Positions 68 through 41,861 of a DNA stretch of 57,991 nt are shown here, piece by piece; the first letter of the stretch is position 1, and each line of letters opens with the position of its first letter. Below the pieces are notes generated by a model, which was not told the DNA's origin, made no database searches, and worked only from the letters and a program-made list of their open reading frames with translations. Both the position numbers and the translations under genes were made by a program. Source of the stretch: Pseudogemmobacter lacusdianii (GTDB taxonomy: Bacteria; Pseudomonadota; Alphaproteobacteria; Rhodobacterales; Rhodobacteraceae). Location of the stretch: NCBI RefSeq assembly GCF_030848395.1, contig NZ_JAVDBT010000019.1:1-57991 (forward strand). Direction: 5' to 3'.

Positions 68-1429
68 TCAGCTGCGGTGCAGATATTGGCCCGAGGGGCT
101 GGTGTAGGCGTCATCCAGAAGCTGGCCGTCTACGGCGATAGTGCGGCCGCGCAAGATGGTGCGGCAGGGCGCGCTTTGCATCGTAAGACCTTGATAAGGC
201 GTGTAATCCGAATGCGAAAGCTGGGTTTCATGGTCGATGGTGATCTGGCGGTCAGGGTCGACCACGACCAGATCGGCATCCATGCCAACGGCGATATCGC
301 CCTTGTTGGGGATCGAATAAAGCCGGGCCACATTTGCGCTGGTTGCAGCAGCAATCAGCTCAATCGGCAGGCTGCGCTTATGGACGCCTTCGTGCAACAG
401 CACCGGCAAAAGCGTGCCAATGCCGGGGAAGCCAGCGGTCGCGGTCCAGATGCTGTCGCCTTTGGTTGCCACTTTGCGCGGCACATGGTCCGAGCCGATC
501 GTGGTGATCAGCCCCTCGGCTACGCCTTCCCAAAGCGCCTCGACATCGGCTTGCTGGCGCAAGGGCGGGTTCACCTTGCCCAAGATGCCGCAACCGGCAT
601 CGCGGGTCAGCGAGAGGTAATGGCTGCAAGTCTCGATATGGACCGCCGGGCCGCCGCGCTTGCGCATCCGGCGCACGATCTCAAGGCTTTCGGCGCTGGA
701 CATATGGACGATGTTCACCGGGCAGCCGGTCTTTTCGCCGAAATACATCACACGGAAGACGTTCTCAGCCTCAAGGAAGCCGGGGCTTTGCTCGTCCCAA
801 ACCGCCAGATCATCGCGGCCCGCCTCTTTCAAGCGGGTGCGGAAATGCGGGATCACCTCGACATTCTCGCAATGCACGCCCACCACGCCGCCTCGGATCT
901 TGGCCGTGGTCTCCATCGCGGCGTAAAGCAGCCCGTCATCAACCTCGGTGAAGCCCTTGGCCTGACCGGCTTTGCCCTTATACATCAGGTAAACCTTGAC
1001 CGACGTTACGCCATGGGTCTGGGCGCAGACGGCAAGGCTTTGCAGTTGTTGGTGGCTGGTGATGCCGAAATGGAAGCCAAAGTCGATCAGGGACTGCGCC
1101 TGTCCGCGCTCTTTCCAAGGGCCGGTCGATTTCGTCAGATCATCCGAGCGGTGAAACGTCATCATCCCCGTCACGCCACCCAAAGCGGCCGAGCGGGATT
1201 CGGTCTGGAAATCGGTTTCGTTTGAGCCAAAACCGATGTGGGTATGGGGATCAATTAGCCCCGGCAGCACCCATTTGTCGCGGCAATCCACCACCTCACG
1301 CGCGGCAGGCTCTGCGCTTTGGCTGTAAATGCCGACGATCTTGCCCTTGCTGACCCCGATCGAGCCCTTGCGAAGGCCGCGGCCGGGAAAGACGATCTCG
1401 CCATCTTTCAACAGAAGATCCAAGGTCAT
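68..1429 (-). CDS. Hydantoinase/dihydropyrimidinase-like amidohydrolase
   Basis: This 453-residue protein of the D-hydantoinase/dihydroorotase/allantoinase branch of the amidohydrolases should hydrolyse a cyclic amide (hydantoin-, dihydropyrimidine- or dihydroorotate-like ring) with a binuclear metal site. All expected ligands are visible: HTH at 62-64, the lysine that is normally carbamylated at K145 (SVKVYL), H186 (VHCENV), H242 (VHMSS) and D314 (GSDHVPR). The length is typical for the family. The start overlaps the stop of the upstream aconitase homologue by ATGA, so the two are translationally coupled. The stop codon lies only two bases from the target site of the left IS, so the native downstream sequence has been lost. 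The substrate cannot be read from sequence. Confidence 0.9.
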   Translation of the reverse strand: MTLDLLLKDGEIVFPGRGLRKGSIGVSKGKIVGIYSQSAEPAAREVVDCRDKWVLPGLIDPHTHIGFGSNETDFQTESRSAALGGVTGMMTFHRSDDLTKSTGPWKERGQAQSLIDFGFHFGITSHQQLQSLAVCAQTHGVTSVKVYLMYKGKAGQAKGFTEVDDGLLYAAMETTAKIRGGVVGVHCENVEVIPHFRTRLKEAGRDDLAVWDEQSPGFLEAENVFRVMYFGEKTGCPVNIVHMSSAESLEIVRRMRKRGGPAVHIETCSHYLSLTRDAGCGILGKVNPPLRQQADVEALWEGVAEGLITTIGSDHVPRKVATKGDSIWTATAGFPGIGTLLPVLLHEGVHKRSLPIELIAAATSANVARLYSIPNKGDIAVGMDADLVVVDPDRQITIDHETQLSHSDYTPYQGLTMQSAPCRTILRGRTIAVDGQLLDDAYTSPSGQYLHRS

Positions 1430-4092
1430 GCTTGTGCATCCTTTTGCGCGGCAGGCGCTGCATCGCCCACGAAGTCATTCAAAACAGCGCGCAAAAGCCC
1501 GCCATTGCTGAGCAGCTGCCGCTCACTTTCGGTGGAGGCATCCAGCGTCACGGTGAAAGCGACCTCACCAGCCTGCACTTGCAAGGGCGCGCCGCGCGCG
1601 ATGGCATTGCGGATGCCGGTGATGGTGATCGGCTCTTGCCCCGTAAGGCCAAGCTGGCGCCAGCCCTCGCCGGGCTGGAAGCGCAGGGGCAAAATGCCCA
1701 AAGAGACAAGGTTCGAGCGGTGGATACGCTCAAAACTTTCGGCGATGACCGCCTGCACGCCCAAAAGGACAGAGCCTTTGGCCGCCCAATCGCGGCTGGA
1801 GCCGGTGCCGTATTCCTTGCCGCCAAGGACGACCAGGGGCAGGCCGCGGTGACGGTAGACCTCGGCCGCAGCGTGGACCGTCATCATCTCCATCTCCGGC
1901 AGAAGCCGGGTCACGCCGCCTTCAACCTCGGGGACGAGGAGGTTCTTGATCCGCAGATTGGCGAAGGTCGCGCGGGCCATCACCTCATGGTTGCAGCGCC
2001 GCGCCACATAGGTGTTGAAGGCCTGCCGCTCGATCCCCAGTGATTGCAGGTAAAGCCCTGCCGCGCTGTCCATCGGGATCTCGCCACCGGGCGAGATATG
2101 GTCGGTGGTGAGAGAGTCACCATAGGCGCCCAAAACCCGCGCGCCCGCGATCTCATCCGAACGATCGCCCGCGCCTGCGGCCTTATCGAAGAAGGGCGAG
2201 GGCAAGAGATAGCTCGAACTTGCATCCCAGGCAAAGCGCGGCCCGACCGGCGCTTGCAAGGATTGCCAAAGCTGGCTGCCCACGGTTTGCACCGGATTCG
2301 GGCTGGGCTGGGGTTTGGCCGCCGCCGCAACCAGCGCAGCCACAGTGTCATCGGCGGGCCAGAGATCGGCCAGCATCACCGGTTGCCCCTTGGCGTTCAG
2401 GCCAAGCGGTTCGGTTTCAAGGTCAATGTCGATCCGTCCTGCCAAGGCGAAAGCGATCACCAGAGGCGGCGACATGATGTAATTGGCGCGGATCTGGCGG
2501 TGGATCCGACCTTCGAAGTTGCGATTGCCTGAGAGCGCGGCCGCCGCCACAAGCTCGCCCTGGTCAATCGTCTCGGCCATCGCGGGCACCAGCGGGCCAG
2601 ATTTGCCGCCGCAGGTGGTGCAGCCATAACCGATGACGTGAAAGCCGATCTCGGCCAGCGCAGAAAGCAGGCCAAGTTCGTCCAGATAGCGCGCGACATT
2701 GCGCGAACCGGGCGCCAGCGACGTTTTCACATGGGCCGGAACCTGAAGGCCCAGTTCGGTGGCGCGTTTGGCAATAAGGCCGGCGGCGATCATCACCGAC
2801 GGGTTCGAGGTATTGGTGCAGGCCGTGATGGCGGCAATGGCCAAGGCGCCATGGGTAAGCCCTGATTGCGCTGCGGGTTTGGCCGCGAAACCGCCCTCGG
2901 TTTTGGAAAGCTCCAAGCGGCGACGGAAATCCTGCGCCACTTGCGGCAAAGCCAGCCGGTCCTGCGGGCGGGCCGGGCCAGCGACGCTGCGTTTGACCTC
3001 ACTCAGGTCAATCTCAATGACCCGCGAATAGCTGGGCTCGGGGGTGCTTGTTTCGCGCAAAAGGCCATTGGCGCGGCAATAGTCTTCGACAAAGCGCGCA
3101 TGTTCGGGCGAACGGGTCGCGTTGAGGTAGGTCAGCGTCTGCGCATCGACCGGGAAGAAGCCAGCGGTCGCCCCATATTCGGGCGCCATATTGGCCAGTG
3201 TCGCACGCTCCGGGACGGAAAGACTGCTGACGCCTTCGCCGATATATTCCACGATCGCCGCAATCACGCCTTCGGCGCGCAGCCTTTGGGTCGCCGTAAG
3301 TGCGAGATCGGTGGTGGTGACGCCCGGTCCAAGCCGGCCATTCAGCCGCAGGCCAACGACCTCCGGCATCGGATAGACATGCGGATAGCCCAGCATGGCG
3401 GCCTCGGCATCCAAGCCGCCAACGCCCCAGCCCAAAACGCCCAAGGCATTGACCATCGGGGTATGCGAGTCGCCACCCAAGACGAACTCGGGATGTGCCG
3501 TTTTCGTATGCTCTGGACCTGAAACCGCAATCACCGTGGCAATCTTCTCAAGATTGAGCTGGTGAATGATGCCTGAGCCCGGCGGATGCACGGTGATATT
3601 GTCAAAGGCCTGCTCGGCCCATTTCAAAAAGCGATACCGCTCATCATTGCGGTGAAATTCGACGGCAAGGTTCAAAGCTTCCGCATCTTTGGAACCGAAA
3701 TGGTCGACCTGAAGCGAATGGTCGACGATCACGTCGACCGGGACGCGGGGCTCAACCGTGAGCGGATCGCCACCAGCCGTGTCGACGGCGTCGCGCAAAG
3801 TGGCAATCCCCTGCAAGACTGGGATGCCGCTGGAATCGGGCAAGATCACCCGGGTGACATGCAGCGGAATGCCGCGCCCTTTGTTTTGCCGCCAGTTCAG
3901 CGCGCTTTGCAGGTCATCCTCTGTCGCGCCGCCCGAGGCCTGATGGCGCAGCAGGTTTTCCACCATGGTGCGGATGGCATAGGGCAGCGAGGCTAGGTCG
4001 ACGCCCCGCGCTGCCGCCTCTTGGTGAAGGCGGTGCAGGGCGACACTTGTGCCGGACAGGTGCAAATCTTGATGCGCCACGGTGAACTCCAT
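1426..4092 (-). CDS. Aconitase A-family hydratase with altered cluster-loop motif
   Basis: This 888-residue aconitase-superfamily enzyme should catalyse stereospecific dehydration/rehydration of a citrate-like acid on a [4Fe-4S] cluster. The cluster cysteines are C425 (ITACTNTSNPS), C491 and C494 (GYGCTTC), and the C-terminal swivel domain has GSSRDWAAKG. The loop after the last two cysteines reads CTTCGGKSG, where AcnA proteins normally read CTTCIGNSG. I chose the ATG at 4092 (MEFTVAH) because the 45 further in-frame codons fall in the AT-rich divergent promoter region and are not family-like. It is coupled to a hydantoinase-like gene and divergent from a methylisocitrate-lyase-like gene, which suggests a dedicated pathway rather than the TCA cycle, but housekeeping aconitase remains possible. 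Confidence 0.85.
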   Translation of the reverse strand: MEFTVAHQDLHLSGTSVALHRLHQEAAARGVDLASLPYAIRTMVENLLRHQASGGATEDDLQSALNWRQNKGRGIPLHVTRVILPDSSGIPVLQGIATLRDAVDTAGGDPLTVEPRVPVDVIVDHSLQVDHFGSKDAEALNLAVEFHRNDERYRFLKWAEQAFDNITVHPPGSGIIHQLNLEKIATVIAVSGPEHTKTAHPEFVLGGDSHTPMVNALGVLGWGVGGLDAEAAMLGYPHVYPMPEVVGLRLNGRLGPGVTTTDLALTATQRLRAEGVIAAIVEYIGEGVSSLSVPERATLANMAPEYGATAGFFPVDAQTLTYLNATRSPEHARFVEDYCRANGLLRETSTPEPSYSRVIEIDLSEVKRSVAGPARPQDRLALPQVAQDFRRRLELSKTEGGFAAKPAAQSGLTHGALAIAAITACTNTSNPSVMIAAGLIAKRATELGLQVPAHVKTSLAPGSRNVARYLDELGLLSALAEIGFHVIGYGCTTCGGKSGPLVPAMAETIDQGELVAAAALSGNRNFEGRIHRQIRANYIMSPPLVIAFALAGRIDIDLETEPLGLNAKGQPVMLADLWPADDTVAALVAAAAKPQPSPNPVQTVGSQLWQSLQAPVGPRFAWDASSSYLLPSPFFDKAAGAGDRSDEIAGARVLGAYGDSLTTDHISPGGEIPMDSAAGLYLQSLGIERQAFNTYVARRCNHEVMARATFANLRIKNLLVPEVEGGVTRLLPEMEMMTVHAAAEVYRHRGLPLVVLGGKEYGTGSSRDWAAKGSVLLGVQAVIAESFERIHRSNLVSLGILPLRFQPGEGWRQLGLTGQEPITITGIRNAIARGAPLQVQAGEVAFTVTLDASTESERQLLSNGGLLRAVLNDFVGDAAPAAQKDAQA

Positions 4093-4120
4093 TCTGCGGC
4101 TGACTATATGGATGGCGAGA

Positions 4121-4136
4121 TTGTGGTCAACAGTTT
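4121..4136 (+). promoter_or_regulatory. Candidate operator half of a paired motif
   Basis: TTGTGGTCAACAGTTT here and the reverse complement of 4215-4230 (TTAGTGTCAACACTTT) agree at 12 of 16 positions. They lie in opposite orientation in the 171-bp AT-rich gap between two divergent genes. A shared regulator, for instance the GntR protein encoded at 10260, is an inference from position only. Confidence 0.3.
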
Positions 4137-4214
4137 TTGGCGTATTATCTGCAATTATCGTGACAATTCCCGTAAATCTGTCTGCAAGTTGAAAAGTTTT
4201 AGGGCTTTTGTTTG

Positions 4215-4230
4215 AAAGTGTTGACACTAA
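4215..4230 (-). promoter_or_regulatory. Palindromic candidate operator
   Basis: The core AGTGT-TG-ACACT (4217-4228) is a perfect 5-2-5 inverted repeat 36 bases before the GTG start of the lyase-like gene. It has the GT-N2-AC centre often seen at GntR-family sites. It resembles the site at 4121-4136. No binding evidence is available. Confidence 0.35.
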
Positions 4231-4263
4231 TGGGCGTGCAAATTAAGGGAGGGCATCAAGTGG

Positions 4264-5235
4264 GTGCCTATGGGGGTGCCTGAGGCCGACCATGCAAAGA
4301 CTGGAACGGGTATGACCAAGATGACCGCCGCCCTGCGGCAGCTGATTAAGACATCGGATTTCCTTGTCTCGCCCGGCGTGTATGATGGCTATAGCGCGCG
4401 GCTGGCTGAGGCAGCGGGTTTTGCCTCTGCCTGCACGTCTGGCGCTGCGATCGCCAACTCTCTGCTGGGCGTTGAGGATCTTGGCTTCATGGGGCTGAGC
4501 GAGAATGTTGCGCATTGCCGCAATCTGGCGCGGGCGATCTCGATCCCGCTTACGGCCGATGCGGACAATGGCTATGGCAACCCGGTCAATGTGCATTTCA
4601 CCGTGCAACGCTTTGAAGAGGCGGGTGTTGCGGGGGTGAACTTGGAAGACCAAGTCAGTCCCAAGCGCTGCGGTCATATGCCCGGCAAGAACGTCGTGTC
4701 CTGTGATGAGATGGTTAAGAAAGTCGAGGCAGCCTGCCTTGCGCGCCGCGACGATGATTTTGTGATCATTGCGCGCACCGATTCTTTGGCTTTGGAGGGG
4801 ATCGAGGGTGCGGTTGCGCGGGTGAAAGCTTATGTCGCCGCCGGCGCCGATATGATCTTCCCCGATGCGGTGAAGTCGCGCGAGCAGATCGCCCGTATCG
4901 TTGAAGCCGCTGGCGATGTGCCTGTTACGGTGAATATGGGCTTTGGCATTCGGTCCCGCCCGACCACGCCGCTTTTCAGCATTCCCGAGCTGAAATCTCT
5001 GGGGGTGAAACGTGTCAGTCTGCCGCGTATGTTGCCTGCGGCCTCGATCAAGGCGATGACCTTGGTGTTGAAAGAGATGAAGACCGTGATCGAAACCGGT
5101 GTGCCGGTTGATCGGCCCGATCTCTTGGCCAGCATCGAGGATATTTGGAGCCTGATGGGCTTTGATGAGGCGCAAGAGTTGGAGCGCAAGCTCTTAACCA
5201 CGGCCGAACGGTCAGAACGCTATGGTGAGCAGTAA
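4264..5235 (+). CDS. Isocitrate lyase/2-methylisocitrate lyase superfamily enzyme
   Basis: This 323-residue protein of the isocitrate lyase/PEP mutase superfamily contains DADNGYGN (99-106, Mg-binding region) and EDQVSPKRCGH (128-138) with the catalytic cysteine C136 of C-C lyases. It lacks the EDK-x5-NS signature of true PEP mutase, so a retro-aldol cleavage such as (methyl)isocitrate or dimethylmalate lyase is more likely than phosphonate formation. CPEP mutases share the KRCGH motif and cannot be excluded. The GTG at 4264 is chosen because AAGGGAGGG lies about ten bases upstream; ATG at 4312 is the alternative. Its natural partner is the divergent aconitase homologue, since hydratase followed by lyase is a recurrent pair. 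The next gene starts one base after its stop. Confidence 0.88.
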   Translation: MPMGVPEADHAKTGTGMTKMTAALRQLIKTSDFLVSPGVYDGYSARLAEAAGFASACTSGAAIANSLLGVEDLGFMGLSENVAHCRNLARAISIPLTADADNGYGNPVNVHFTVQRFEEAGVAGVNLEDQVSPKRCGHMPGKNVVSCDEMVKKVEAACLARRDDDFVIIARTDSLALEGIEGAVARVKAYVAAGADMIFPDAVKSREQIARIVEAAGDVPVTVNMGFGIRSRPTTPLFSIPELKSLGVKRVSLPRMLPAASIKAMTLVLKEMKTVIETGVPVDRPDLLASIEDIWSLMGFDEAQELERKLLTTAERSERYGEQ

Positions 5236-5236
5236 G

Positions 5237-6625
5237 ATGGATCAGATCGGCCAGACACAGCTTTCGGAAATTCGGATTCCGAGTGATGTCTTGGAGGTCG
5301 ATCCCGAGGGCCATCTGCGGATCGACGGGCATCGCGCCAGCGATCTTGTCGCGCAATTCGGCTCGCCGCTATATGTGACGGTCGAAAGCACGCTGCGGCA
5401 AAATTGCCATAGCATCCTTGCGGCCTTCAACGCCCATTGGCCTGCCGGGGTTGAGGTCTTCTACGCGATCAAGACCAATAACACCTTGGCGATTAGGCAT
5501 ATTCTTAGCCAGGAGCAGATCGGCGGCGAATGCTTTGGGCTGAATGAATACCGCGCCACGCTGGAGAACGGCGTGCCGGGGGACCGGATCATTCTGAACG
5601 GCTCGGACAAATCGCGCGATGAGATCGCGCTGGCTTTGTCCCATGGCTCGGTGATCAACATCGACCATGAAGACGAAATTGCCGTCATTGCAGGGCTCAG
5701 CTCGGCGGCGCATCCCGCGCGGGTGAACCTGCGCATCAAGCTGCATTCCGAGGCCTTCGACCAGTTCGACAGCGCGTTTTTCAAATCCGCCGATAAGATC
5801 AGTGACGCTCTTGCAGCCTCAAAATGGGGCGCCTCCTTGCCCGAGGCGCTGCGCTTGGTGCAGCTGATCTTGGCCGAGCCGAGGCTGAAGCTGATCGGGC
5901 TTTCAAGCCATGTTGGCCGCTTCTCGAACCTGCCCGAGGCGGCGGCTGTGGGAGCGGCGGAGCTGGCGAAAGTGGCCATTGCGCTGCAAGCCGAGACCGG
6001 ATTCTGGCCCGAGGTTTTGGATCTTGGCGGCGGCTGGCCGCGTCAGCGCGAACCGGAATCGCGCCAATCGGCGATGAACCCGCATGCGATCGGGGATTAC
6101 GCCGCCGCCGTCGCGCAGGCGCTGACGCAGGCCCTTGGGGGGCGCCCGCTGCCAAAGCTTTGGCTGGAGCCGGGGCGCTATCTTGTTGGCAATGCGGTGC
6201 TTTTGCTGGGGCGCGTGGGGGCCGTACGCAAGGATCTTGGCCGGGTGTGGACCCATATGGATGCCAGCACCAACCATCTGATGCGCATTGAGACCAGCCG
6301 CAGTTGGTATCACGTTTTGCCCGCTGATCGGATGCACGCGCCTTATGAGGCGACCACCGATATCGTCGGCCCGACCTGCATCCCTTCGCTTCTGGCGGGC
6401 GGCCGCCCGATGCCCGACCTCAAGCGCGGCGATGTGGTCGCCTTTCTGGATGCGGGCATGTATGCCGAGGTTATCTCTAACCAATTCAACGGGATGCCGC
6501 GCCCGGCCAATGTCTTGGTCGCAGCGGGGCGGGCCGATCTTATCCGTCGCCGCGAGACCTATGCCGATATTTTCGGCACCCATCTTGTGCCCGACCATAT
6601 TGATGTGACCGCGACGAAACCATGA
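5237..6625 (+). CDS. Fold-type III PLP amino acid decarboxylase, DapDC-like (first of pair)
   Basis: This 462-residue alanine-racemase-fold PLP decarboxylase belongs to the diaminopimelate/ornithine decarboxylase group (LysA, NspC, BtrK, SbnH relatives). The PLP lysine is K79 in YAIKTN. The phosphate-binding glycine loop is LDLGGGWPRQ (261-270), EPGRYLVGN follows at 311, and the catalytic cysteine of the partner subunit is C381 (GPTCIPS). The usual DAGAYG is DAGMYAEV here, as in specialised homologues. ATG 5237 is preferred over 5222 because GGTGAG sits seven bases upstream of it, within the last codons of the lyase gene. It overlaps the next decarboxylase by ATGA. Lysine-pathway DapDC is unlikely given the duplication and the neighbours; the substrate is unknown. 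Confidence 0.88.
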   Translation: MDQIGQTQLSEIRIPSDVLEVDPEGHLRIDGHRASDLVAQFGSPLYVTVESTLRQNCHSILAAFNAHWPAGVEVFYAIKTNNTLAIRHILSQEQIGGECFGLNEYRATLENGVPGDRIILNGSDKSRDEIALALSHGSVINIDHEDEIAVIAGLSSAAHPARVNLRIKLHSEAFDQFDSAFFKSADKISDALAASKWGASLPEALRLVQLILAEPRLKLIGLSSHVGRFSNLPEAAAVGAAELAKVAIALQAETGFWPEVLDLGGGWPRQREPESRQSAMNPHAIGDYAAAVAQALTQALGGRPLPKLWLEPGRYLVGNAVLLLGRVGAVRKDLGRVWTHMDASTNHLMRIETSRSWYHVLPADRMHAPYEATTDIVGPTCIPSLLAGGRPMPDLKRGDVVAFLDAGMYAEVISNQFNGMPRPANVLVAAGRADLIRRRETYADIFGTHLVPDHIDVTATKP

Positions 6626-8019
6626 CACGCGCAGCCGAAACTGGTGCTGATCTTCTCAATCGGCTGAGCATCTTCAGCGACCGCTTGACGGTGGATGCAG
6701 CGGGGCAATTGGCCATCGCGGGCTACAGCGCCAGCGACCTTGTCGCGCAATATGGCTCTCCGCTGGTCGTCTCGGTCGAAGAGACGTTTGAAGCGAATTA
6801 CGCCCGCATCCTGACCGCCTTTTCGCAATGGTGGCGGGGAGAGGTGCGTGTGCTTTACTCTTTGAAGTGCAACAACAATCTGGCCATCCGCGCGCTGCTG
6901 TCGCTCTTGGGTGCAGGGGGGGATTGCTTTGGCGATGCCGAGCTGCGTGCAACGCTTGAGACTGGGACCGATAGGGCTCAGGTTGCGCTGAATGGCAGCG
7001 ACAAGACCGCGCAGCAAATCGCCGTTGCAATGGCCGCCGGGGTCACGATCAACATCGACGGCAGTGATGAGCTTGGTTTCATCGAAGAGATTCACCGCCA
7101 AACCGGGCTGGTGGCCAAGACCAACCTGCGCCTGAAGGTTCTGCCCGAAGAGCTGAACCACGTTATGCGGGGCTCGGGCCTGAAACACGGGGCGGGAGTT
7201 GAATCGGTGCGCAGGGCGAAATGGGGCTTTACCGAGCCTGCCGCCCTGCCGATCCTGCGCGATCTTCTTGCTTCGCCCGCCACGGATGTCACCGGGTTTT
7301 CCTGCCACATCGGCCATCTCTCCACCGATCCTTTGGCCTTTGCCGCGATCGCCGGGGCGTTTGGCGTCTTGGTGACCCGGCTGAGCCTTGCCACAGAGTT
7401 CCTGCCCAAGGTCTTGGACATTGGCGGCGGCTGGTCGCGCGAACGTGAGCCTGAGCAACGCGGCGATGATGTCGTCCTGACCCCGATCGAGGGCCAGGTC
7501 GAGGCCGCCGTCTCGGCACTGGAAGCGGCGATTGCGCCCTTGAACGTGACGCCCGCGCTTTGGGTCGAGCCGGGGCGCTATATCGTTGGCAATGCGCAGG
7601 TGCTGCTGGCCTCGGTCGGCGCGGTCAAAGAGGATGCGGGCCTGCGCTGGGTGCATCTCGACGCCAGCACCAACAATCTGCAACGGATCGAGACCGGCGG
7701 CTTCCGGCATGATCTTTTGCCCGCCAACCGGATGCTCGATCCGATGGATCAGCTCAGCCAGATCGTTGGCGGCACCTGCTTCCGCTCGGTCATCGGGGCG
7801 GATCGCGCCCTGCCATCTCTTTCACGCGGCGATCTGGTCGCTGTGCTGGACGCTGGCATGTATGCCGAGGTTTTCGCCAATCAATTCAACGGTGTGCCGC
7901 GCCCCGCTGGCGTGCTTTTGTGCAAGGACGGCAGCGTTGAACTGATCCGCAAGGCCGAGACCTATCAGGATATTTTCGGGCAGCACATCTTGCCGGCCCG
8001 CTTTGCCCCATCCCTCTAG
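6622..8019 (+). CDS. Fold-type III PLP amino acid decarboxylase, DapDC-like (second of pair)
   Basis: This 465-residue paralogue of the preceding gene has the same architecture: PLP lysine K82 in YSLKCNNN, stacking-His segment GFSCHIGHLS, glycine loop LDIGGGWSRE, EPGRYIVGN, and partner-site cysteine in GGTCFRS. Both proteins share the tail NQFNG(M/V)PRP and R(R/K)AETY(A/Q)DIFG, so they come from an old duplication, but they have diverged well beyond a recent copy. These enzymes place each active site at a dimer interface, so a heterodimer of the two products is possible. The ATG overlaps the previous stop by four bases. A strong AGGAG for the next small gene begins right at its stop. Confidence 0.88.
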   Translation: MTRAAETGADLLNRLSIFSDRLTVDAAGQLAIAGYSASDLVAQYGSPLVVSVEETFEANYARILTAFSQWWRGEVRVLYSLKCNNNLAIRALLSLLGAGGDCFGDAELRATLETGTDRAQVALNGSDKTAQQIAVAMAAGVTINIDGSDELGFIEEIHRQTGLVAKTNLRLKVLPEELNHVMRGSGLKHGAGVESVRRAKWGFTEPAALPILRDLLASPATDVTGFSCHIGHLSTDPLAFAAIAGAFGVLVTRLSLATEFLPKVLDIGGGWSREREPEQRGDDVVLTPIEGQVEAAVSALEAAIAPLNVTPALWVEPGRYIVGNAQVLLASVGAVKEDAGLRWVHLDASTNNLQRIETGGFRHDLLPANRMLDPMDQLSQIVGGTCFRSVIGADRALPSLSRGDLVAVLDAGMYAEVFANQFNGVPRPAGVLLCKDGSVELIRKAETYQDIFGQHILPARFAPSL

Positions 8020-8029
8020 GAGAAGACGC

Positions 8030-8236
8030 ATGTCCAACATCCCGCAAACCTTCTTTGCAGACCCCGTGACCGAGCGGCTGTTCCAATCCGTCGTTGCCTT
8101 GGCGGCCGAGGTGAATGTGTTGCGCGACCGCGTGGCGCGGCTAGAGGCGGGTGCAGAGGCTGCGCCGCAAGCCAATGCCGCCGCGGATGCCGATGCCTTT
8201 GTGCAGCATGTTTTTGGCGGCCTTGTCCAAGCCTAA
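8030..8236 (+). CDS. 68-residue coiled-coil protein, function unknown
   Basis: The small protein starts at an ATG preceded by AGGAGAAG. Residues 14-40 (ERLFQSVVALAAEVNVLRDR and on through VARLEAG) have hydrophobic heptad spacing typical of a short coiled coil. An Ala-rich linker and an amphipathic tail (DAFVQHVFGGL) follow. There is no signal peptide, Cys or metal motif. It sits inside the operon between the second decarboxylase and the methyltransferase, so co-translation with these enzymes is expected. A scaffold or subunit for one of them is a reasonable guess. I do not recognise a family. Confidence 0.75.
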   Translation: MSNIPQTFFADPVTERLFQSVVALAAEVNVLRDRVARLEAGAEAAPQANAAADADAFVQHVFGGLVQA

Positions 8237-8261
8237 GCCCTGATCAAGAGCGGAGCCTCTT

Positions 8262-9338
8262 ATGACTAATCCGAATTTCGCCCGTCTGCGTCTTGATGCC
8301 GAGACGCAATCCTACCAAGCCTTCATCGGTGCCTTCCGCAAGCTTTGGGCGGGTCCGCTCTATCGCTCTATGCGCGATGAGGCGGCTGCACTGCCGAACC
8401 AAGAGCCAGAGAATTTTGCGGCTTTTGAGGCGGAGTTGCACCAGCAGCCCAAGCACCAGTTCTTCGGCTGGCTTGAGCACAATCTTCAAAAGATGAAATA
8501 CGAGGGTCGTTGGGGCGTGGTCCCGGCGGCGAATGCGCAGCGCGATGAGATCGAGGCGCTGATGGCTGCCCCCGTCGGTGGCAATCGCCTGACTGAAGAT
8601 CCGGCCCTGCAATTGCCTGACTATTATGAAGAAAACGACTTCCATAACCACCCCGGTGGGTTGCGTGAAGACCCGCTGGCGGCGGTGATCTACCGCGAAA
8701 GCGCAAGCGCTGCGGGCGGCGTTGTCGGCAAAGCCGATCTGCATGCGCGCTATGTGCAGGCCCTTTTGGGCGACGCGAAAGTGAAGCGGGTGATCGACAT
8801 TGGGTGCGGCTTTGGGCGCAGCACCTTCTGCTTCACCAACGCGCTCCCCGAAGCCACGGCGGTGGGTGTGGACCTTTCGGGATCTTGCGTGCGTCTTTCT
8901 GCGCATCTGGCCGAAGGCCGCCCGGATGAGAACCGGGTGCATTTCGTGCAGGCCGATGGCGTGAAAGTGCCCTTTGCCGATGCAAGCTTTGACCTCTTCA
9001 CCTCGACCATGCTTTTGCATGAGATGCCGGCCGATGCGATCCGTGAGCTGATCGCAGAAGCCTTCCGCGTGCTCGAGCCGGGTGGCATCAGCTCGCACCT
9101 TGATTTCTTGCCGCCGCCGATCAACTTCCTGCGCGCGCTTTATCTTGGCCATTCGGATCGCAACGCTGAACCCTTCATGCGCGAACTGGCCGAGATGGAT
9201 ATGGTGGCCGAGCATGAGAAGGTCGGCTTCACCGATGTCGAGATCATCCCCTTTGCCGAAGATGATCAAGGTCTTGGCGAGAAGTGGCGCCTGCCTTGGA
9301 CCATCATCCGCGCCCGCAAACCCGCGGAGGCAAAGTGA
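8262..9338 (+). CDS. SAM-dependent class I methyltransferase with unusual N-terminal domain
   Basis: The 358-residue protein has a Rossmann methyltransferase core starting near residue 175, with motif I VIDIGCGFGRS (177-187), an acidic motif II GVDLS, and TMLLHEM followed by FRVLEPGG in the motif IV/post-IV positions. The first 170 residues form a separate helical, aromatic-rich domain that may shape the substrate pocket and that I do not recognise. The start ATG follows GCGGAG. The stop TGA shares its last base with the ATG of the alpha/beta-hydrolase gene. Context suggests methylation of a small polar molecule made or consumed by the operon; N-, O- or C-methylation cannot be told from sequence. 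Confidence 0.85.
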   Translation: MTNPNFARLRLDAETQSYQAFIGAFRKLWAGPLYRSMRDEAAALPNQEPENFAAFEAELHQQPKHQFFGWLEHNLQKMKYEGRWGVVPAANAQRDEIEALMAAPVGGNRLTEDPALQLPDYYEENDFHNHPGGLREDPLAAVIYRESASAAGGVVGKADLHARYVQALLGDAKVKRVIDIGCGFGRSTFCFTNALPEATAVGVDLSGSCVRLSAHLAEGRPDENRVHFVQADGVKVPFADASFDLFTSTMLLHEMPADAIRELIAEAFRVLEPGGISSHLDFLPPPINFLRALYLGHSDRNAEPFMRELAEMDMVAEHEKVGFTDVEIIPFAEDDQGLGEKWRLPWTIIRARKPAEAK

Positions 9339-10174
9339 TGGCAACCCCGACCATCCGTCGCGGCTTTGTCGATGTTCCCGGCGGTCAGGTGCATTACCGC
9401 ACCGCCGGCGAACAGACCGGCATCCCACTGATCTTGATGCATCCCTCGCCCGGTTCGGGGCTGATGCTAAAGCCGCTTTTGCAGGCAATGGGCGCTAAAC
9501 GCTGGACGATTGCGCTGGACACGCGCGGCAATGGCGATTCCTCGCCGCTGTCGGGCACGCCTGAAATCGCCGATTTCGCCAATGCCACATGGCAGGCGAT
9601 TGACGCGCTTGGCATCGAAGAATGCTGCCTGCTGGGCACCCATACCGGTGCCTCGATCGCGACCGAGGCCTCGATCCAGCAGCCCGCCCGCGTGCGGCGG
9701 CTGATCATCGACAATATGGGTCTGTGGGACAGCACGCAGCGCCAGAACCATATCGATCATAACTCTCCCACCATCAAACCCGACATGATGGGCAGTCAGT
9801 TCAATTGGGCTTGGCACTATTGCCGCGACCAATATCTCTTCGCGCCTTGGTATCAGCGCAAAGAGGCCAACCGCCGCCATATCGACATGCCCGAGCCCGA
9901 GGTTCTGCATGAATTTGTGGTCGAGGTGCTGAAAGCGCTTGAGACCTATAACATGTCTTACTCGGCCGCGGCGCGGTTCGCGAAGCGCGACCGCTTGCCT
10001 CTTGTCAGCGTTAACACCATGGTGTCTTCCAGCGAACGCGATCCATTGAAGCGGTATCTCGATGAGTTGCACAGTTTGGTGCCCGGTTCGGTCAAGGCGA
10101 TTGTGGGCGATCTGGAAACGGTCGATGGCGCCCTTGCTGCGGCTGAAATTTACGAAGCGTTTATTTCGCGTTAA
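9338..10174 (+). CDS. Alpha/beta-hydrolase-fold protein with His in place of the nucleophilic Ser
   Basis: The 278-residue protein has the alpha/beta-hydrolase fold. The N-terminal HPSPGSG resembles an oxyanion loop, and DTRGNGDS is the usual DxRGxGxS strand-4 signature. The nucleophile elbow reads G100-T-H-T-G104, putting H102 where Ser, Cys or Asp should be. The C-terminus also lacks an obvious catalytic Asp/His pair (it ends GDLETVDGALAAAEIYEAF). Either it uses non-classical chemistry or it is a non-hydrolytic relative. It is coupled to the methyltransferase by TGATG and is the last enzyme of the run before the GntR regulator. Confidence 0.82.
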   Translation: MATPTIRRGFVDVPGGQVHYRTAGEQTGIPLILMHPSPGSGLMLKPLLQAMGAKRWTIALDTRGNGDSSPLSGTPEIADFANATWQAIDALGIEECCLLGTHTGASIATEASIQQPARVRRLIIDNMGLWDSTQRQNHIDHNSPTIKPDMMGSQFNWAWHYCRDQYLFAPWYQRKEANRRHIDMPEPEVLHEFVVEVLKALETYNMSYSAAARFAKRDRLPLVSVNTMVSSSERDPLKRYLDELHSLVPGSVKAIVGDLETVDGALAAAEIYEAFISR

Positions 10175-10259
10175 TCGATAGCGGTTGCGGCGGCCAAAGT
10201 TGTAAAAGCAGGGCCGCCGTAGCACCACAGTCGGCAGTCTATAGAAACAGGCGAATGCA

Positions 10260-10928
10260 TTGAGCAGCACAGAGATCGCGCAGGCGGACGAAAATTCATC
10301 GGTGCCGCGCAGTGATACGCGGGGCGATGAGGTCTTTGATAAGATCCTTAACATGATCTTGACCTGCGAGTTGCCGCCCGGCGCCTTCGTCAATGAGTCC
10401 ACCCTTGCCACCGCTTTCGGCGTCAGCCGTGGCCCCGTGCGTGAGGCGATCCGGCGGCTGCAAGGTATTCAGCTGGTCACACGCGAACCTTACGTTCGCG
10501 CGCGCGTCGTCACCTTGACCCGCCGCGGCGTGGTCGAGCTGTTCGAAACCCGCGAGGCCTTGGAGGGCTTTTCATGCCGTTTGGCCGCCCAGAACATGAC
10601 CGATGTGAAAATCCTTGCGCTGGAGCAGGATGTCGAACGGGCCCGCCAGCCCGACGCAGCGCCGTTCGATTTCCATGAGCGGATCGTGCGCGAAGGCGGC
10701 AATCAGCGGATCATCAGTATCCTTTGCGGCGACCTTTACCATTTGCTGCGGATCTATCGTCGCATGTCGGGTGCCGTGCCCGAACGTAAGGAAGTGGCCT
10801 CGCACGAGCATTGGCAAATCATCCGAGCGCTGAAGATCCGCGAGGCTGAGCTGGCGGAATCCCTTATGCGGTCTCACATCCGCCGCGCCAGCGAGCAAAT
10901 TCTCAGCAGCGGCAGCTTTGAAGACTAA
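10260..10928 (+). CDS. GntR-family regulator, FadR/FCD subfamily
   Basis: This 222-residue regulator has an N-terminal winged helix (about 20-90) with the GntR signature FGVSRGPVREAIRRLQ. A C-terminal all-helical FCD ligand domain follows, with likely metal or acid-binding residues in FDFHERIVREGGN, HEHWQII and RSHIRRA. The frame opens with TTG at 10260; an upstream ATG (10254) is out of frame and stops at once. It follows the hydrolase gene by 85 bases and is the obvious candidate for local control of the 4264-10174 genes, probably responding to a carboxylic acid. FCD regulators usually repress catabolic operons, which is a mild argument for a degradative pathway. Confidence 0.82.
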   Translation: MSSTEIAQADENSSVPRSDTRGDEVFDKILNMILTCELPPGAFVNESTLATAFGVSRGPVREAIRRLQGIQLVTREPYVRARVVTLTRRGVVELFETREALEGFSCRLAAQNMTDVKILALEQDVERARQPDAAPFDFHERIVREGGNQRIISILCGDLYHLLRIYRRMSGAVPERKEVASHEHWQIIRALKIREAELAESLMRSHIRRASEQILSSGSFED

Positions 10929-11734: not shown

Positions 11735-12677
11735 TTACGCGGCCATGGCTTCAGTTTCCAGAGGTGCATAGAAGTTGGCCTCGGCTTCTGCGGGCGGGAT
11801 GTTCCCTATGGGCTCGAGAAGACGGCGGTTGTTGAACCAGTCCACCCATTCGAGCGTCGCGTATTCCACGGCTTCCAAGCTGCGCCATGGGCCACGGCGG
11901 TGGATGACCTCAGCCTTGAACAGGCCATTGATCGTCTCGGCCAAGGCGTTGTCGTAACTGTCGCCGACGCTGCCAACCGAGGGTTCGATACCAGCCTCCG
12001 CCAAGCGCTCAGTGTAGCGAATAGACAGGTATTGCGAGCCCCTGTCGCTGTGGTGGTGAGCCATTGTGGCGCCATTGGTTCAAGCCCAATGGCGAACGCC
12101 CCATGCCCTTTCCCGGGCGGCGATCATGCACCGCCTGTTCCAGGGCATCCAGAACGAACCCCGCATGCGCCGAACTGCTGACGCGCCAGCCAACGATCTT
12201 GCGAGCATAGGCATCGATGACAAAGGCGACATAGACGAAACCCTTCCAGGTGGCGACATAGGTGAAATCCGACACCCACAGCATGTTCGGGGCCGGAACG
12301 CGGAACTGGCGGTTCACCTTGTCCAGTGGACGGGGGGCTTTCTTGTCCGGGACCGTCGTCCTGTGCGGCTTGCCGCGGATAATGCCCTGAATACCCATGC
12401 TCTTCATCAGCCGTGCCATCGTGCATCGCGCGACATCGAAGCCCTCACGGCCAAGCTGTCGCCAGACCTTCCGGACGCCGTAGACCCGCCAGTTCTCTTC
12501 GAAGACCCGAAGGATCTCGGGGCGCAGAGCCTCGTCCCGGCGCGCCCGATCCGACAGCCGCGCCGGATCGGCCCGCTTGGCCAGATGTTCATAATAGGTG
12601 GACAGGGCAATCGGCAGCACGCTGCAAATCGGCTCGACCCCGTGCGCATCCCGATGCGCGTCGATAAAACCCACCAT
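11735..12677 (-). pseudogene. IS3-family orfB (DDE integrase domain), frameshifted
   Basis: OrfB opens near 12677 with [18 protein letters not shown]. It contains the HTH_21-like region (YGVRKVWRQL), the first catalytic Asp in WVSDFTYVATWKGF and the second in FVIDAYARK. It changes frame after RRPGKGM at about 12104, and resumes from 12064 as HHSDRGSQYLS with the later E segment GDSYDNALAETINGLFK. The two parts are offset by one frame, matching a net 3n+1 insertion of about 40 bases containing a hairpin. The protein cannot be made without recoding. Confidence 0.85.
12065..12104. repeat. About 40-bp hairpin insertion inside orfB (copy 1)
   Basis: The sequence contains a perfect stem-loop at 12070-12094, CGCCATTGG-TTCAAGC-CCAATGGCG. 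It breaks the orfB frame and is flanked by CCAT on both sides (12061-12064 and 12101-12104), which could be a target duplication. A closely similar sequence lies in the opposite orientation inside orfA at about 12755-12799. The seven-base loop fits the tRNA T-loop pattern TTCRANY. Confidence 0.6.
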
Positions 12678-13077
12678 CACTTCGACCGGCGGTCGAGCCG
12701 CTACAGGCAGTGCTCGAAGCAGTGCCGCTCTGCCTTTCGCACCATCGCAAAATATGCGTTCGCCAGTGGGCTTGAACCAGTGGCGCCTGCACTGGCTCAC
12801 CCTTGCGAAGGATCTCATTCGCCTGGCGCAGCTCGCGGTTCTCGCGTTCCAGCGCCTTCATCTTCTCGGCCATCTCGCTGGAGACGCCCGGACGCTTGCC
12901 GCTATCAACCTCGGCCTTCTTGACCCAATCGTTCAAGGTCTGCGGCGCGCACCCGATCTTCGCCGAAATCGACATGACCGCCTGCCACCGCGATCCATGC
13001 TGACCCTCATTGTCCAGGACCAACCGCACCGCGCGTTCACGCACTTCCGGAGAAAACTTGTTCGTTGCCTTGCTCAT
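12589..13077 (-). pseudogene. IS3-family orfA (HTH protein), interrupted near its 3' end
   Basis: OrfA starts at 13077 after GGAG with [20 protein letters not shown]. It has a typical HTH ([18 protein letters not shown]) and leucine-zipper end ([18 protein letters not shown]). After ILRK the expected ASAYFAMAELDRRSK is broken: an inserted segment encodes [14 protein letters not shown], then YFAM appears in another frame. A second insertion of about 43 bases precedes the recognisable LDRRSK and stop. The normal frameshift junction to orfB is therefore destroyed. Confidence 0.8.
12755..12799. repeat. Hairpin insertion inside orfA (copy 2, inverted relative to copy 1)
   Basis: Read on the minus strand this contains GGCGCCACTGGTTCAAGC followed by CCACTGGCGAACGC. 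This is the same unit as copy 1 (AGCCA.TG, GGCGCCA.TGG, TTCAAGC, CCA.TGGCGAACGC) with only a few substitutions. Its stem has one central C-C mismatch. It sits between codons for ILRK and AYFAM in orfA. Confidence 0.6.
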
Positions 13078-13527: not shown

Positions 13528-14448
13528 TCAACGTATCGGTGTCACGGCCTGCGAAAACGCATTTTGCGCCTCGGCGGTGTCGCGGACGGCTTTCATGAAC
13601 AATCGCAATGTGGCCGTGGGGGCGATCTTGCGGGGCATCAAGAATTGCGCGTCATAGCGGAACTCAGGCTCAAAAGGCACCGGCACCAAAGGCACCGGTA
13701 GATAGCCGATGATGGGAAAGGTGCTCATGAGCGCGACGCCTTTGAAGTGATGCGCCAGCCAAAGCGCCGCTTCGCCCGAAGACGCCTCCAGCATCTCGCG
13801 GGGGGTGGCGCCTTCGCTTAAGAGCTGACGCTCGATAAAGGCGCGTGAGCCGTGGCGCCGCGTCAGCAAGACCAGTTTTTCATCAATCAGATCGGCAGGA
13901 TACGCCACTGCCTTTTGCGCAAGCTTGGTGCTGGGCGAGGCAAAGCAGTACAGCCGCGCGCGGCGAAAATTTATGCTGACGAGGTTCGGACTGCGCTGCT
14001 GGGTGTCGGTGATACCGATATCCAGATCTTCTTCATTCAGCGCGTCCAAGATCACCGGGGTCGAGCGGATCTCAAGCCGGATTTGGCACTCCGGCATCAG
14101 GCTGGCAAAGCGGCCAAGCGCCTCGGGGATAAACCCATGGGCGAAAAATGGCGGCGCGCCGACCCGGAGCACGGATGGCCCAAGGTTGGGGGGCACTGCC
14201 GGTCCGTTTGCCGCCGACAACACGGCATTTGCTTGTTGTAAAACGCCCTGAGCGGCAGCGGTCGGCAACAGATTGCGGCCCACCCGGTCAAAGAGCAACT
14301 TGCCGGTTTTGCGCTCAAACGACGCCAGCATCCGCGAAGCGGCAGGCTGGCTTAACCCAAGCCGATCCGCGGCGGCGGTCACGGTGCCCAGCTCCATCAC
14401 CTGTTGGAACAGCCACAGCTCTCGCAGGGTCCAGTCAGGATATTCCAT
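13528..14448 (-). CDS. LysR-family transcriptional regulator
   Basis: The 306-residue LysR protein has an N-terminal HTH (TLRELWLFQQVMELGTVTAA, then ADRLGLSQPAASRMLASFE). A periplasmic-binding-like effector domain extends to the C-terminus. The start at 14448 is chosen because GGAGG lies seven bases upstream; the longer frame (14469) has no such signal. It is divergent from the hydrolase and dipeptide-type ABC transporter genes and shares an 81-bp intergenic region with them that contains a good inverted repeat, so it probably controls them. Its own 3' end borders the mobile-element scar. The effector is unknown. Confidence 0.88.
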   Translation of the reverse strand: MEYPDWTLRELWLFQQVMELGTVTAAADRLGLSQPAASRMLASFERKTGKLLFDRVGRNLLPTAAAQGVLQQANAVLSAANGPAVPPNLGPSVLRVGAPPFFAHGFIPEALGRFASLMPECQIRLEIRSTPVILDALNEEDLDIGITDTQQRSPNLVSINFRRARLYCFASPSTKLAQKAVAYPADLIDEKLVLLTRRHGSRAFIERQLLSEGATPREMLEASSGEAALWLAHHFKGVALMSTFPIIGYLPVPLVPVPFEPEFRYDAQFLMPRKIAPTATLRLFMKAVRDTAEAQNAFSQAVTPIR

Positions 14449-14465
14449 GCGAGCGCCTCCGTTAT

Positions 14466-14484
14466 TCATGCACTTTATGCATGA
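14466..14484. promoter_or_regulatory. LysR-type operator candidate
   Basis: TCATGCA-CTTTA-TGCATGA is a perfect 7-5-7 inverted repeat midway between the divergent LysR and hydrolase starts. It fits the T-N11-A layout of LysR-family sites. A further GCATGA half-site lies at about 14510. Confidence 0.55.
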
Positions 14485-14529
14485 TTATAAGATTTGATGA
14501 TGTAACAAAAGCATGAAAAACGCAGGGCC

Positions 14530-15318
14530 ATGTCTGATGTCCACACTCCTCCCCCCCTGATCGCGCTCTGGCCCGGAGCAGAGGTCGTTTTTGACCGCGC
14601 CTGGCTGTCGCTGCCCGATGGGCGCGCGGGCGAGTTGTCGGATCTTGCGCTGGATCCTGCGGCGCTTGCTGATCTGCCATTGGTGATTTTCCAGACCGGA
14701 TCGACCGACCGCGGGCAGGATAAGGCGGTGGCGCAGTGGTTTAATGGGCTGGGGCTGGCCTTTCTGGCGCCGCGCAGCCATCTGGTGCCAAACCGGATCA
14801 GCTATCAGTCGCCCGCGCCGATGGAGGTCTATCAGCGGGTGCATGACCTGCGCCGCAAAGAGATCGATTATTGCCTTTATCGGCTTCAAAAGGCGGGATT
14901 GTTCGACCTTGATCGCCTTGCGGTGATTGGGCTGTCTGAAGGGGCGGTGGCTGCGGCAACTTGGCGCCCCCAGCGTAATTGCCCCCGCGTTATCCTCGCC
15001 TGGTCGATGGAAGATAGTTACTTCGGCCGCGACATGACATTCCCGCACGACATCAACTGTCCGATCCTGAACGTGATCGGCGCCAAGGACCCATTCTTTG
15101 GCGCGCAGGGATCCTTGGCCAGTACCGACCAGGTGATCGGACATGGGGCCGAGGTCTTGGCTGATTACCCCAATACCAAGGTCATCCTTTACCCCAATTG
15201 CGGACACCGCGTGGCCGATGATCCGCAATGCGAAGCTGATGTCGTGAATTTTGTTGTTCAGCACTTGGCTCCAGCAGGGCTGTGCCGCCCCAAGAACCCC
15301 CAACAAAGGACTGCGTGA
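14530..15318 (+). CDS. Alpha/beta hydrolase, dienelactone-hydrolase/prolyl-peptidase type
   Basis: The 262-residue cytoplasmic hydrolase has an intact catalytic triad: nucleophile elbow GLSEGA, acid in GAKDPFFG, and histidine in NCGHRV. No signal peptide is present. It is the first gene of the LysR-controlled run, and its stop TGA overlaps the ATG of the substrate-binding protein. It may therefore cleave an ester, lactone or peptide bond in the imported compound. The start ATG has only a weak ribosome-binding site. Confidence 0.82.
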   Translation: MSDVHTPPPLIALWPGAEVVFDRAWLSLPDGRAGELSDLALDPAALADLPLVIFQTGSTDRGQDKAVAQWFNGLGLAFLAPRSHLVPNRISYQSPAPMEVYQRVHDLRRKEIDYCLYRLQKAGLFDLDRLAVIGLSEGAVAAATWRPQRNCPRVILAWSMEDSYFGRDMTFPHDINCPILNVIGAKDPFFGAQGSLASTDQVIGHGAEVLADYPNTKVILYPNCGHRVADDPQCEADVVNFVVQHLAPAGLCRPKNPQQRTA

Positions 15319-16922: not shown

Positions 16923-16943
16923 GCTCGCCTTATCCCGACCAAC

Positions 16944-16967
16944 AGGGGGGCCAAAAGGCCCCCCTGA
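16944..16967. terminator. Intercistronic hairpin after the binding-protein gene
   Basis: CAGGGGGGCC-AAAA-GGCCCCCCTG forms a perfect 10-bp stem with a four-base loop, without a following T-run. It lies between the SBP stop and the permease start. It probably stabilises the SBP mRNA or attenuates read-through. Confidence 0.75.
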
Positions 16968-16986
16968 ACACAGAGAGCCCCTAGCC

Positions 16987-41119: not shown

Positions 41120-41851
41120 CTAAGCCGAGATAAACTCACGCACGAAGTCGCTCGCAGGCCGCGCGCGGATATCGGCAGGCTTGCCGATCTGCTCAATCCG
41201 CCCGCCGGTTTGCGAGCCAGACATCACCACCACCAGATCGGCCAGCTCCATCGCCTCGTCTTGGTCGTGCGTGACAAAGACCGTGGTCAGCCCGGTCTCA
41301 TCATGGATATCGCGCAGGCCCTGCCGCAGCTCTTTGCGCACCTTGGCATCCAAAGCGCCAAAGGGCTCATCGAGCAAAAGCATCCTTGGCTCAATCGCCA
41401 GCGCCCGCGCCAAAGCCACCCTTTGCCGCTGCCCGCCCGAAAGCTGCGTCGGATAACGAGGGCCGATCTCGGGCAGTTGGATCAGCTCCAAAAGCTTTTG
41501 CACCCGCCGCGCGATCTCGGCTTTCGGCGGACGGCTCGCCCGTGGCCGCGCCTTCAAGCCGTAAGCGATGTTTTCAAACACCGTCATATGCCGGAAAAGC
41601 GCGTAAGACTGGAACACGAACCCCGCCCGCCGCTCTTGCACCGTCAGCCCGGTCGCATCCACCCCATCAAAGCGCACCCGGCCCGAGGTTGGAAACTCCA
41701 AACCGCCAAGGATCCGCAGCAAGGTGGTTTTCCCCGAGCCCGAAGGCCCCAGCAAAGCCACCAAAGCCCCAGAAGGGATCGAGAGGGACACCGGCGCCAA
41801 AGCCGCAGTGGTGCCAAATTGTTTCGAGATTTCATCGATTTCGATATGCAT
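41120..41851 (-). CDS. cysA: Sulfate/thiosulfate ABC transporter ATPase, short form
   Basis: The 243-residue ATPase has Walker [30 protein letters not shown], signature LSGGQRQR and Walker [13 protein letters not shown], all typical of CysA. It ends at about residue 243, whereas many CysA proteins reach about 350 with a C-terminal regulatory (TOBE) part; that domain is missing here. AGGAG lies eight bases before ATG 41851. It is the last gene of the sulfate operon. Confidence 0.9.
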
Positions 41852-41861
41852 GGGTGTTCTC

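Follow-up and report, generated by a model that had tools for sequence, protein, structure and literature searches.

The left end of contig NZ_JAVDBT010000019.1 of Pseudogemmobacter lacusdianii carries nine genes between positions 68 and 10,928. They encode a hydantoinase-like protein (hyd), an aconitase-like protein (acn), a carbon-carbon lyase (lyase), two pyridoxal phosphate (PLP)-dependent decarboxylase-like proteins (DC1 and DC2), a 68-amino acid protein, a methyltransferase-like protein (MT), an alpha/beta-hydrolase fold protein (ABH) and a GntR-type regulator. The window, i.e. the whole stretch of 57,991 nucleotides that was analyzed, comprises the entire contig. With about even confidence we read the set as an inducible operon that would break down a nitrogen-containing ring compound with a di- or tricarboxylic acid skeleton. 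The observations behind this reading are gene content, synteny, active sites specific to single clades and recurrent gene partners. All nine open reading frames (ORFs) were recovered intact and free of internal stop codons, and domain scans with Pfam and NCBIfam returned the families that a first-pass annotation of the sequence had assigned to them.

The nine-gene set is conserved yet rare. A metagenome-assembled genome of Gemmobacter (locus L007) contains all nine genes in identical order and orientation, with identities to the window of 82% (hyd), 75% (acn), 88% (lyase), 79% (DC1), 78% (DC2), 72% (68-amino acid protein), 83% (MT), 84% (ABH) and 78% (GntR). Since this order is kept in an independent genome, the cluster is not due to chance. 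On the Antarctobacter plasmid NZ_CP022543 homologues of all nine, at 51–65% identity, lie within 23.4 kb (24,616–47,995). There lyase-GntR is divergent from acn-NTF2-hyd-isochorismatase, followed by two ATP-binding cassette (ABC) importers and other genes, and DC1-DC2-small-MT-ABH forms a second block 11.5 kb away from the first. The genes thus form a unit, as had been proposed, and scattering of the homologues was not found in these two neighborhoods. DC1 was detected at E 1e-70 in one of 390 genomes of the order, the organism's own, and at 1e-58 in 3 of 385 genomes of the class, own genome included; in the other two genomes the stretch read showed a single decarboxylase gene, in one case a contig of 4.3 kb. 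Relatives of MT (1e-25) and of the lyase clade (1e-68) were present in 22 and 9 of the 385 class genomes, respectively, the own genome again included. DC1 also matched 170 plasmid records; in the best 40 of these 170, identity was above 32% only for Antarctobacter (56%) and Microvirga (45%). The DC1-like decarboxylase of Microvirga (L006; genes named by eye) and an isochorismatase relative in Neorhizobium (L096) each have two agmatinase-type ureohydrolases and ABC genes for amino acids nearby, neighbors hinting at guanidino or ureido substrates.

Comparison of related loci showed that a core of GntR, lyase, acn, hyd and an isochorismatase-family amidase recurs. The amidase was missing from the first-pass gene list: in Gemmobacter hyd is followed by the isochorismatase-family gene and PotA/PotB-like ABC genes exactly where the window contig ends, directly beyond hyd, so that its expected place is off the contig. 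On a plasmid of Shinella sp. WSC3-e (L079) acn-hyd-isochorismatase is divergent from GntR-lyase, with identities to the window of 57% (hyd), 55% (acn), 69% (lyase) and 58% (GntR); the isochorismatase is 77% identical to that of Gemmobacter. G484 carries acn-NTF2-hyd-isochorismatase with GntR and lyase. No matches to the decarboxylases, the 68-amino acid protein, MT or ABH were found in the 36.9 kb read from Shinella, nor was the decarboxylase/methyltransferase block found in the 37 kb read from G484. Across loci the set is a separable mosaic.

Other loci combine these parts differently. G634 has lyase-GntR-acn-NTF2 with the small protein and MT, flanked on its opposite side by a class III aminotransferase and HyuA/HyuB; in G764 isochorismatase, HyuA/HyuB, lyase, LeuCD, the small protein, MT and NTF2 occur together. 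In N. resinovorum a 49-kb span of plasmid pSA1 contains relatives of hyd, isochorismatase, lyase, MT, the small protein, ABH and HyuAB, and several loci contain MT and ABH relatives without the core. At 1e-75 hyd matched 11 plasmid records; the nine that were read all have a gene of the isochorismatase family no further than about 10 kb away (the two left out are Aminobacter MDW-2 and SR38). Hyd loci of lower identity contain MmgE/PrpD pairs with a flavin adenine dinucleotide (FAD)-dependent protein in Variovorax and M. nodulans, the latter also with a lyase, LeuCD with an HMG-CoA-lyase and a CoA-transferase in Natrinema, and a PrpB-type lyase in Hydrogenophaga. Transporter genes adjoin the core in Gemmobacter, Antarctobacter, Shinella, G484 and G634, and in Shinella its neighbors are of catabolic type (aldehyde dehydrogenase, aminotransferase, FAD protein, MmgE/PrpD). 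The recurrent theme is a ring amide hydrolase, an isochorismatase-family amidase, a hydratase/isomerase, a carbon-carbon lyase, an importer and a regulator, the individual parts varying by locus.

The aconitase-like protein and the lyase each belong to a distinct clade. Acn scores 1019 bits against the AcnA model TIGR01341 (cutoff 945) and 719 bits against AcnD (cutoff 1420). It retains the Fe-S cysteines and those arginine motifs that were compared, but its Fe-S motif reads CTTCGGK, not the canonical CTTCIGN of AcnA. Three changes, CIGN to C[GS]GK, TDSH to [GC]DSH and MMRG to M[AT]R[AV], were found in all six core aconitases and in none of five others, including the organism's own AcnA, and in a tree of 11 sequences the six form one clade (support 0.999). 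The genome has a separate AcnA (45% identity to acn) and a LysA-like gene, so the cluster copies are extra and divergent. The lyase scores 245 bits against the PrpB model TIGR02317, below the cutoff of 354, and keeps the catalytic K-R-C-G-H loop (PKRCGH) and the metal-site aspartates (D-A-D). Of 22 lyases compared, 14 have an insertion of four residues, mostly FG-x-R-x-R, among them those of all six core loci; the insertion is absent from PrpB, and 3 of the 14 have lost its first arginine. The lysine specific to the acn clade and the arginine loop of the lyase suggest an extra carboxylate; here and for DC1 and DC2, single active-site residues are assigned the functions usual in their families. 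The hydratase and lyase pair that had been postulated thus does recur as a pair, both members with shared clade-specific changes.

For the ring-opening step, hyd reaches 282 bits against TIGR02033 (D-hydantoinase/dihydropyrimidinase), below the cutoff of 393, and its best match in the PDB is the hydantoinase 1gkp (E 1e-57). Inspection of this alignment showed that HxH, Lys, His, His and Asp are kept, which we take to be the ligands of a binuclear metal site. The best PDB match of the Gemmobacter isochorismatase is N-carbamoylsarcosine amidohydrolase (E 1e-35); it also matches 3ot4/3uao (E 4e-18), listed as putative isochorismatase and presumably a structure of the maleamate-amidase family. HyuA/HyuB lie beside the lyase/GntR/acn set in G634 and, together with isochorismatase, beside lyase, LeuCD, the small protein and MT in G764. 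As HyuAB replaces hyd beside related lyases, a ring-opening amide hydrolase recurs though its family changes.

Both decarboxylase-like proteins fall below the cutoff of 298 bits of the LysA model TIGR01048 (DC1 259, DC2 231). K84, H230 and C386, presumably the PLP lysine, the stacking histidine and the catalytic cysteine of fold-III decarboxylases, are invariant in 10 of 10 aligned rows. The glutamate of the CE motif (CI, CF) and the tyrosine of RPxxY (RIETS, RIETG), which we take to be the residues that contact the distal end of the substrate in LysA, are lost in DC1 and DC2. The two are old paralogs, with orthologs grouping across three species (support 0.990 and 0.999). The proposed twofold amino acid decarboxylation is an assignment by family, and the LysA substrate residues are gone from both proteins.

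MT is a predicted S-adenosylmethionine (SAM)-dependent methyltransferase. Its motif I (DIGCGFG) and the acidic D204 are present in the window, and motif I is degenerate in some relatives. Among 35 aligned family members (matches with fewer than 220 aligned residues were dropped) P119, H128, Y144, G185, H253-E254, E266 and R269 are invariant. An AlphaFold model of MT from a two-row alignment gave a pLDDT of 33 and was discarded. The 68-amino acid protein had no match in Pfam and NCBIfam when scanned as the 77-amino acid ORF from 8003. A profile built from five members (1.5-kb flanks, E 1e-3) detected a partner at 11 of 27 MT loci outside the training set, against 0 of 35 control loci (677 kb); the raw count of 12 of 29 includes two training loci, one with a match and one without. 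At L041 and L043 MT relatives share neighbors that by eye resemble creatinase/ectoine-hydrolase-like M24, AhpD-like and TIGR04076-like proteins.

ABH had been described as a serine-less hydrolase. The absence of serine is confirmed and is common in the family: in 16 aligned sequences, window included, the elbow residue is histidine in 14, serine in one and alanine in one (matches below 190 aligned residues were dropped). A conserved histidine that could serve as the C-terminal catalytic one was not seen at aligned positions 250–276. The histidine elbow is therefore a trait of the family and not a sign of decay, and serine hydrolysis is unlikely; ABH is probably no serine hydrolase at all. G417, G547 and G721, three genomes from one family, have 27, 25 and 32 matches to the ABH family, with many frames of about 570 amino acids that carry two matches each, which suggests tandem fused copies.

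Taken together, the following route is proposed; breakdown as its direction, the order of its steps and all substrates are inferred. An importer would take up the ring compound, and hyd would open a cyclic ureide or imide. The N-carbamoylsarcosine-amidase-like isochorismatase, the next gene in relatives, would then strip the carbamoyl or amide nitrogen. The resulting amino acid would be handled by PLP enzymes, DC1/DC2 here and a class III aminotransferase in Shinella and G634. Acn would hydrate or isomerize the resulting acid, and the lyase would cleave it in a retro-aldol reaction of the methylisocitrate-lyase type, feeding carbon to central metabolism. MT with its 68-amino acid partner and the histidine-elbow protein may modify the ring compound at some step, and the GntR protein would regulate the operon. 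Ring opening is proposed because hyd and HyuAB displace one another beside the same lyase family with an amidase nearby, the hydration and retro-aldol endgame because of the paired aconitase and lyase clades, and the amino acid intermediate because of DC1/DC2 here and the class III aminotransferases elsewhere.

Several observations weigh against this reading. The isochorismatase was found neither on the window contig nor in the window's own assembly (a search run without a positive control), and no importer was found inside 68–10,928. Unlike G484, Variovorax and M. nodulans, the window set lacks an FAD-dependent oxidoreductase that could make the alkene for the hydratase; the FAD protein of Shinella is of the monooxygenase type. 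Since acn scores above the AcnA cutoff, it may have plain aconitase activity. In G448 the lyase is accompanied by MaoC-type hydratases, and the 20 kb read there showed no aconitase relative. The core is separable from the DC/MT block, and the small partner was not detected in 16 of the 27 MT test loci within 1.5-kb flanks, some of them truncated, while control locus L040 holds an MT relative yet gave no small-protein match. Near-identical ABH pairs in L040 and L052 also mean that the 16 aligned sequences are not all independent.

The separability of the blocks leads to an alternative in which two unrelated modules are joined, the GntR-lyase-acn-hyd-isochorismatase core and a DC1-DC2-small-MT-ABH block with a substrate of its own. 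The distance between the blocks in Antarctobacter, the core without the block in the Shinella and G484 stretches and the loci with MT and ABH relatives but no core would all fit. In the window and in Gemmobacter, however, the blocks are interleaved in one operon with lyase overlapping DC1, G634 and G764 carry MT and the small protein together with lyase and ring amide hydrolases, and N. resinovorum has MT, the small protein and ABH alongside hyd, isochorismatase and lyase. We therefore consider two modules unlikely, if a serious contender. A different substrate is the subject of another version: hyd would open a substituted maleimide or succinimide, isochorismatase would act as a half-amidase of the maleamate-amidase type, and acn and lyase would work on a dialkylmaleate and the corresponding malate, much as at the end of nicotinate fermentation. 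It is favored by the direct fit of aconitase and lyase chemistry to dialkylmaleates, by the match to the presumed maleamate-amidase structure and by the residues suggesting an extra carboxylate. The far stronger match to carbamoylsarcosine amidase favors the ureide version instead, and the PLP amino acid enzymes of the operon would be left unexplained, which makes the imide version rather unlikely.

Biosynthesis of a small molecule such as a citrate-based metallophore would reverse the direction. LysA-like decarboxylases occur in citrate siderophore pathways (FslC), and DC1 and DC2 do match the FslC (N-citrylornithine decarboxylase) model, though weakly, at 63 and 34 bits against a cutoff of 500. 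Biosynthetic clusters also commonly contain a methyltransferase, an odd hydrolase and a small protein. Yet there is no synthetase family in the match lists of the nine window proteins (the best 25 matches for three of them) and no annotated synthetase or exporter beside the Antarctobacter and Shinella sets in the stretches read, whereas ABC importers and a FadR-type regulator adjoin the sets, joined in Shinella by the catabolic neighbors named above. We judge biosynthesis improbable. Still less probable, and indeed very improbable, is that spare housekeeping copies of AcnA, LysA, PrpB and dihydropyrimidinase were captured on an island. The families are known throughout, acn exceeds the AcnA cutoff and ORFs resembling insertion sequences (IS) lie at about 11.7–13.1 kb (by eye), but the other scores miss the LysA, PrpB and hydantoinase cutoffs, the aconitase changes are confined to the core loci, the LysA substrate residues are lost in both decarboxylases and synteny is kept. 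Catabolism of AGE or polyamines was considered and set aside.

Degradation of a ring compound can also be compared with known systems. The nicotinate fermentation of Eubacterium barkeri ends with enamidase, dimethylmaleate hydratase and 2,3-dimethylmalate lyase. As here, an amidohydrolase opens a cyclic amide and is followed by an aconitase-superfamily hydratase and a lyase of the isocitrate lyase/phosphoenolpyruvate mutase (ICL/PEPM) family. The hydratase, however, has two subunits there and is a single AcnA-like chain here, our lyase has the four-residue insertion, and the PLP decarboxylases, methyltransferase and histidine-elbow protein are extra. The match lists of the nine proteins, to which this search was confined, contained no nicotinate dehydrogenase, 6-hydroxynicotinate reductase or methyleneglutarate mutase. 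The methylcitrate cycle (AcnD/AcnB and PrpB) likewise pairs an aconitase-family with a methylisocitrate-lyase-family enzyme; in contrast to it the nine genes include no PrpC-type synthase, the AcnD and PrpB cutoffs are missed and the pair is coupled to ring amide hydrolases. Hydantoin and creatinine degradation employ hydantoinase or HyuAB and N-carbamoylsarcosine amidohydrolase, and ring opening, the isochorismatase-family carbamoyl amidase and the interchange of hyd and HyuAB types between related loci resemble it. Coupling to aconitase and lyase is the difference, and because of it the released amino acid would need a polycarboxylic skeleton. DC1 and DC2 share fold III and the catalytic Lys, His and Cys with LysA and the D-ornithine/D-lysine decarboxylase DokD; they differ in the missing CE glutamate and RPxxY tyrosine, in being tandem old paralogs and in scoring below the family cutoffs.

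In line with the earlier remark that the implied chemistry matched no familiar pathway, a literature search that mostly excluded subscription journals found no description of the gene set or of a GxHxG hydrolase, and nothing was found on the Sphingomonas JE1 plasmid. The main text of a paper on acesulfame and Shinella (PMC11500405) contains neither "aconit", "hydantoin", "porphyrin", "hydroxymethylbilane" nor the plasmid name, and mentions isocitrate once, for the glyoxylate cycle.

A bolder proposal, which we hold to be speculative and improbable, is an aerobic route that mineralizes cyclic imides or ureides bearing a tricarboxylate, with hematinic acid, a maleimide derived from tetrapyrroles, as the boldest candidate. 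The imide would be converted via the half-amide to a methyl-homoaconitate-type triacid and methyl-homoisocitrate, and a homologue of the methylcitrate endgame would cleave the latter to pyruvate and glutarate. The Shinella core adjoins a full-score hemC (hydroxymethylbilane synthase, L079 3636–4568; 333 bits, cutoff 164) and a HemL-like aminotransferase, and HbpS-like heme-binding genes occur close to the sets of G634 and Aminobacter; the tetrapyrrole idea drawn from these neighbors is a lead, not a result. If true, the route would use two uncharacterized enzyme types, a histidine-elbow alpha/beta-hydrolase and a methyltransferase with a dedicated small protein.

The layout of the locus (Table 1) agrees with the two coupled, divergent units and FadR-type regulator described before. 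Hyd and acn overlap by 4 bp, lyase and DC1 by 14 bp, DC1 and DC2 by 4 bp, and MT and ABH by 1 bp; 10 bp separate DC2 from the small protein gene, 25 bp the latter from MT and 85 bp ABH from GntR. The acn ORF extends to 4227, and its ATG at 4092 coincides with the Gemmobacter start; the lyase ORF opens at GTG 4264, with similarity to the Gemmobacter lyase starting at ATG 4312. The divergent gap depends on these choices: the 171 bp given earlier hold for starts 4092/4264, while the lyase ATG at 4312 yields 219 bp and the longest ORFs 36 bp. One sigma-70-like site lies in the gap on the minus strand (4130–4103; consensus match only). ABH starts at ATG 9338, and most of its analyses were run from codon 2 (9341).

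Table 1. Features of the gene cluster at the left end of the window.
Feature	Position	Strand	Basis
hyd, cyclic amidohydrolase of the hydantoinase/dihydroorotase family (ring opening)	68..1429	-	Pfam Amidohydro_1
acn, aconitase-family isomerase/hydratase, divergent clade	1426..4092	-	Fe-S Cys kept, CGGK for CIGN
Divergent promoter region between two transcription units	4093..4311	.	Sequence layout
lyase, isocitrate lyase/PEP mutase-family C-C lyase, FGIRxR insertion	4312..5235	+	KRCGH, D-A-D kept
DC1, LysA-like fold-III PLP decarboxylase	5222..6625	+	Orn/DAP decarboxylase domain match
DC2, LysA-like fold-III PLP decarboxylase, 46% identity to DC1	6622..8019	+	Orn/DAP decarboxylase domain match
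68-aa protein, family found beside the MT family	8030..8236	+	Profile comparison
MT, class I SAM-dependent methyltransferase-like, conserved N-terminal D-x-H..PG motif	8262..9338	+	Domain match, alignment
ABH, alpha/beta-hydrolase fold, 278 aa, GTHTG (His for nucleophilic Ser)	9338..10174	+	Domain match, alignment
GntR/FadR (FCD) regulator, TTG start	10260..10928	+	Domain match; retained in core loci

The surroundings of the cluster were inspected by eye. Just downstream, overlapping ORFs on the minus strand (11,735–13,077) resemble an IS3-family transposase pair, and translations at 13,528–20,820 indicate a LysR-type gene and an oligopeptide-type ABC transporter operon adjoining the cluster. 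In Gemmobacter sulfate-type ABC genes follow immediately downstream of the cluster (L007 16,122–18,559), and in the window they are about 30 kb away (41,120–44,884); judged from translations, a rearrangement or insertion separates the two layouts.

In summary, the parts belong to known families; what appears undescribed is their combination, together with the acn and lyase clades and three of the proteins. If our reading is right, the locus would represent a recurrent, so far unnamed catabolic module of ring amide hydrolase, isochorismatase amidase, aconitase-superfamily enzyme and ICL/PEPM-family lyase, which carries lineage-specific front ends. It would also provide a substrate class for three families without assigned function, the histidine-elbow alpha/beta-hydrolases, the methyltransferase family and its small partner. 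For this clade it would further show how the automatic labels AcnA, LysA and dihydroorotase can mislead.

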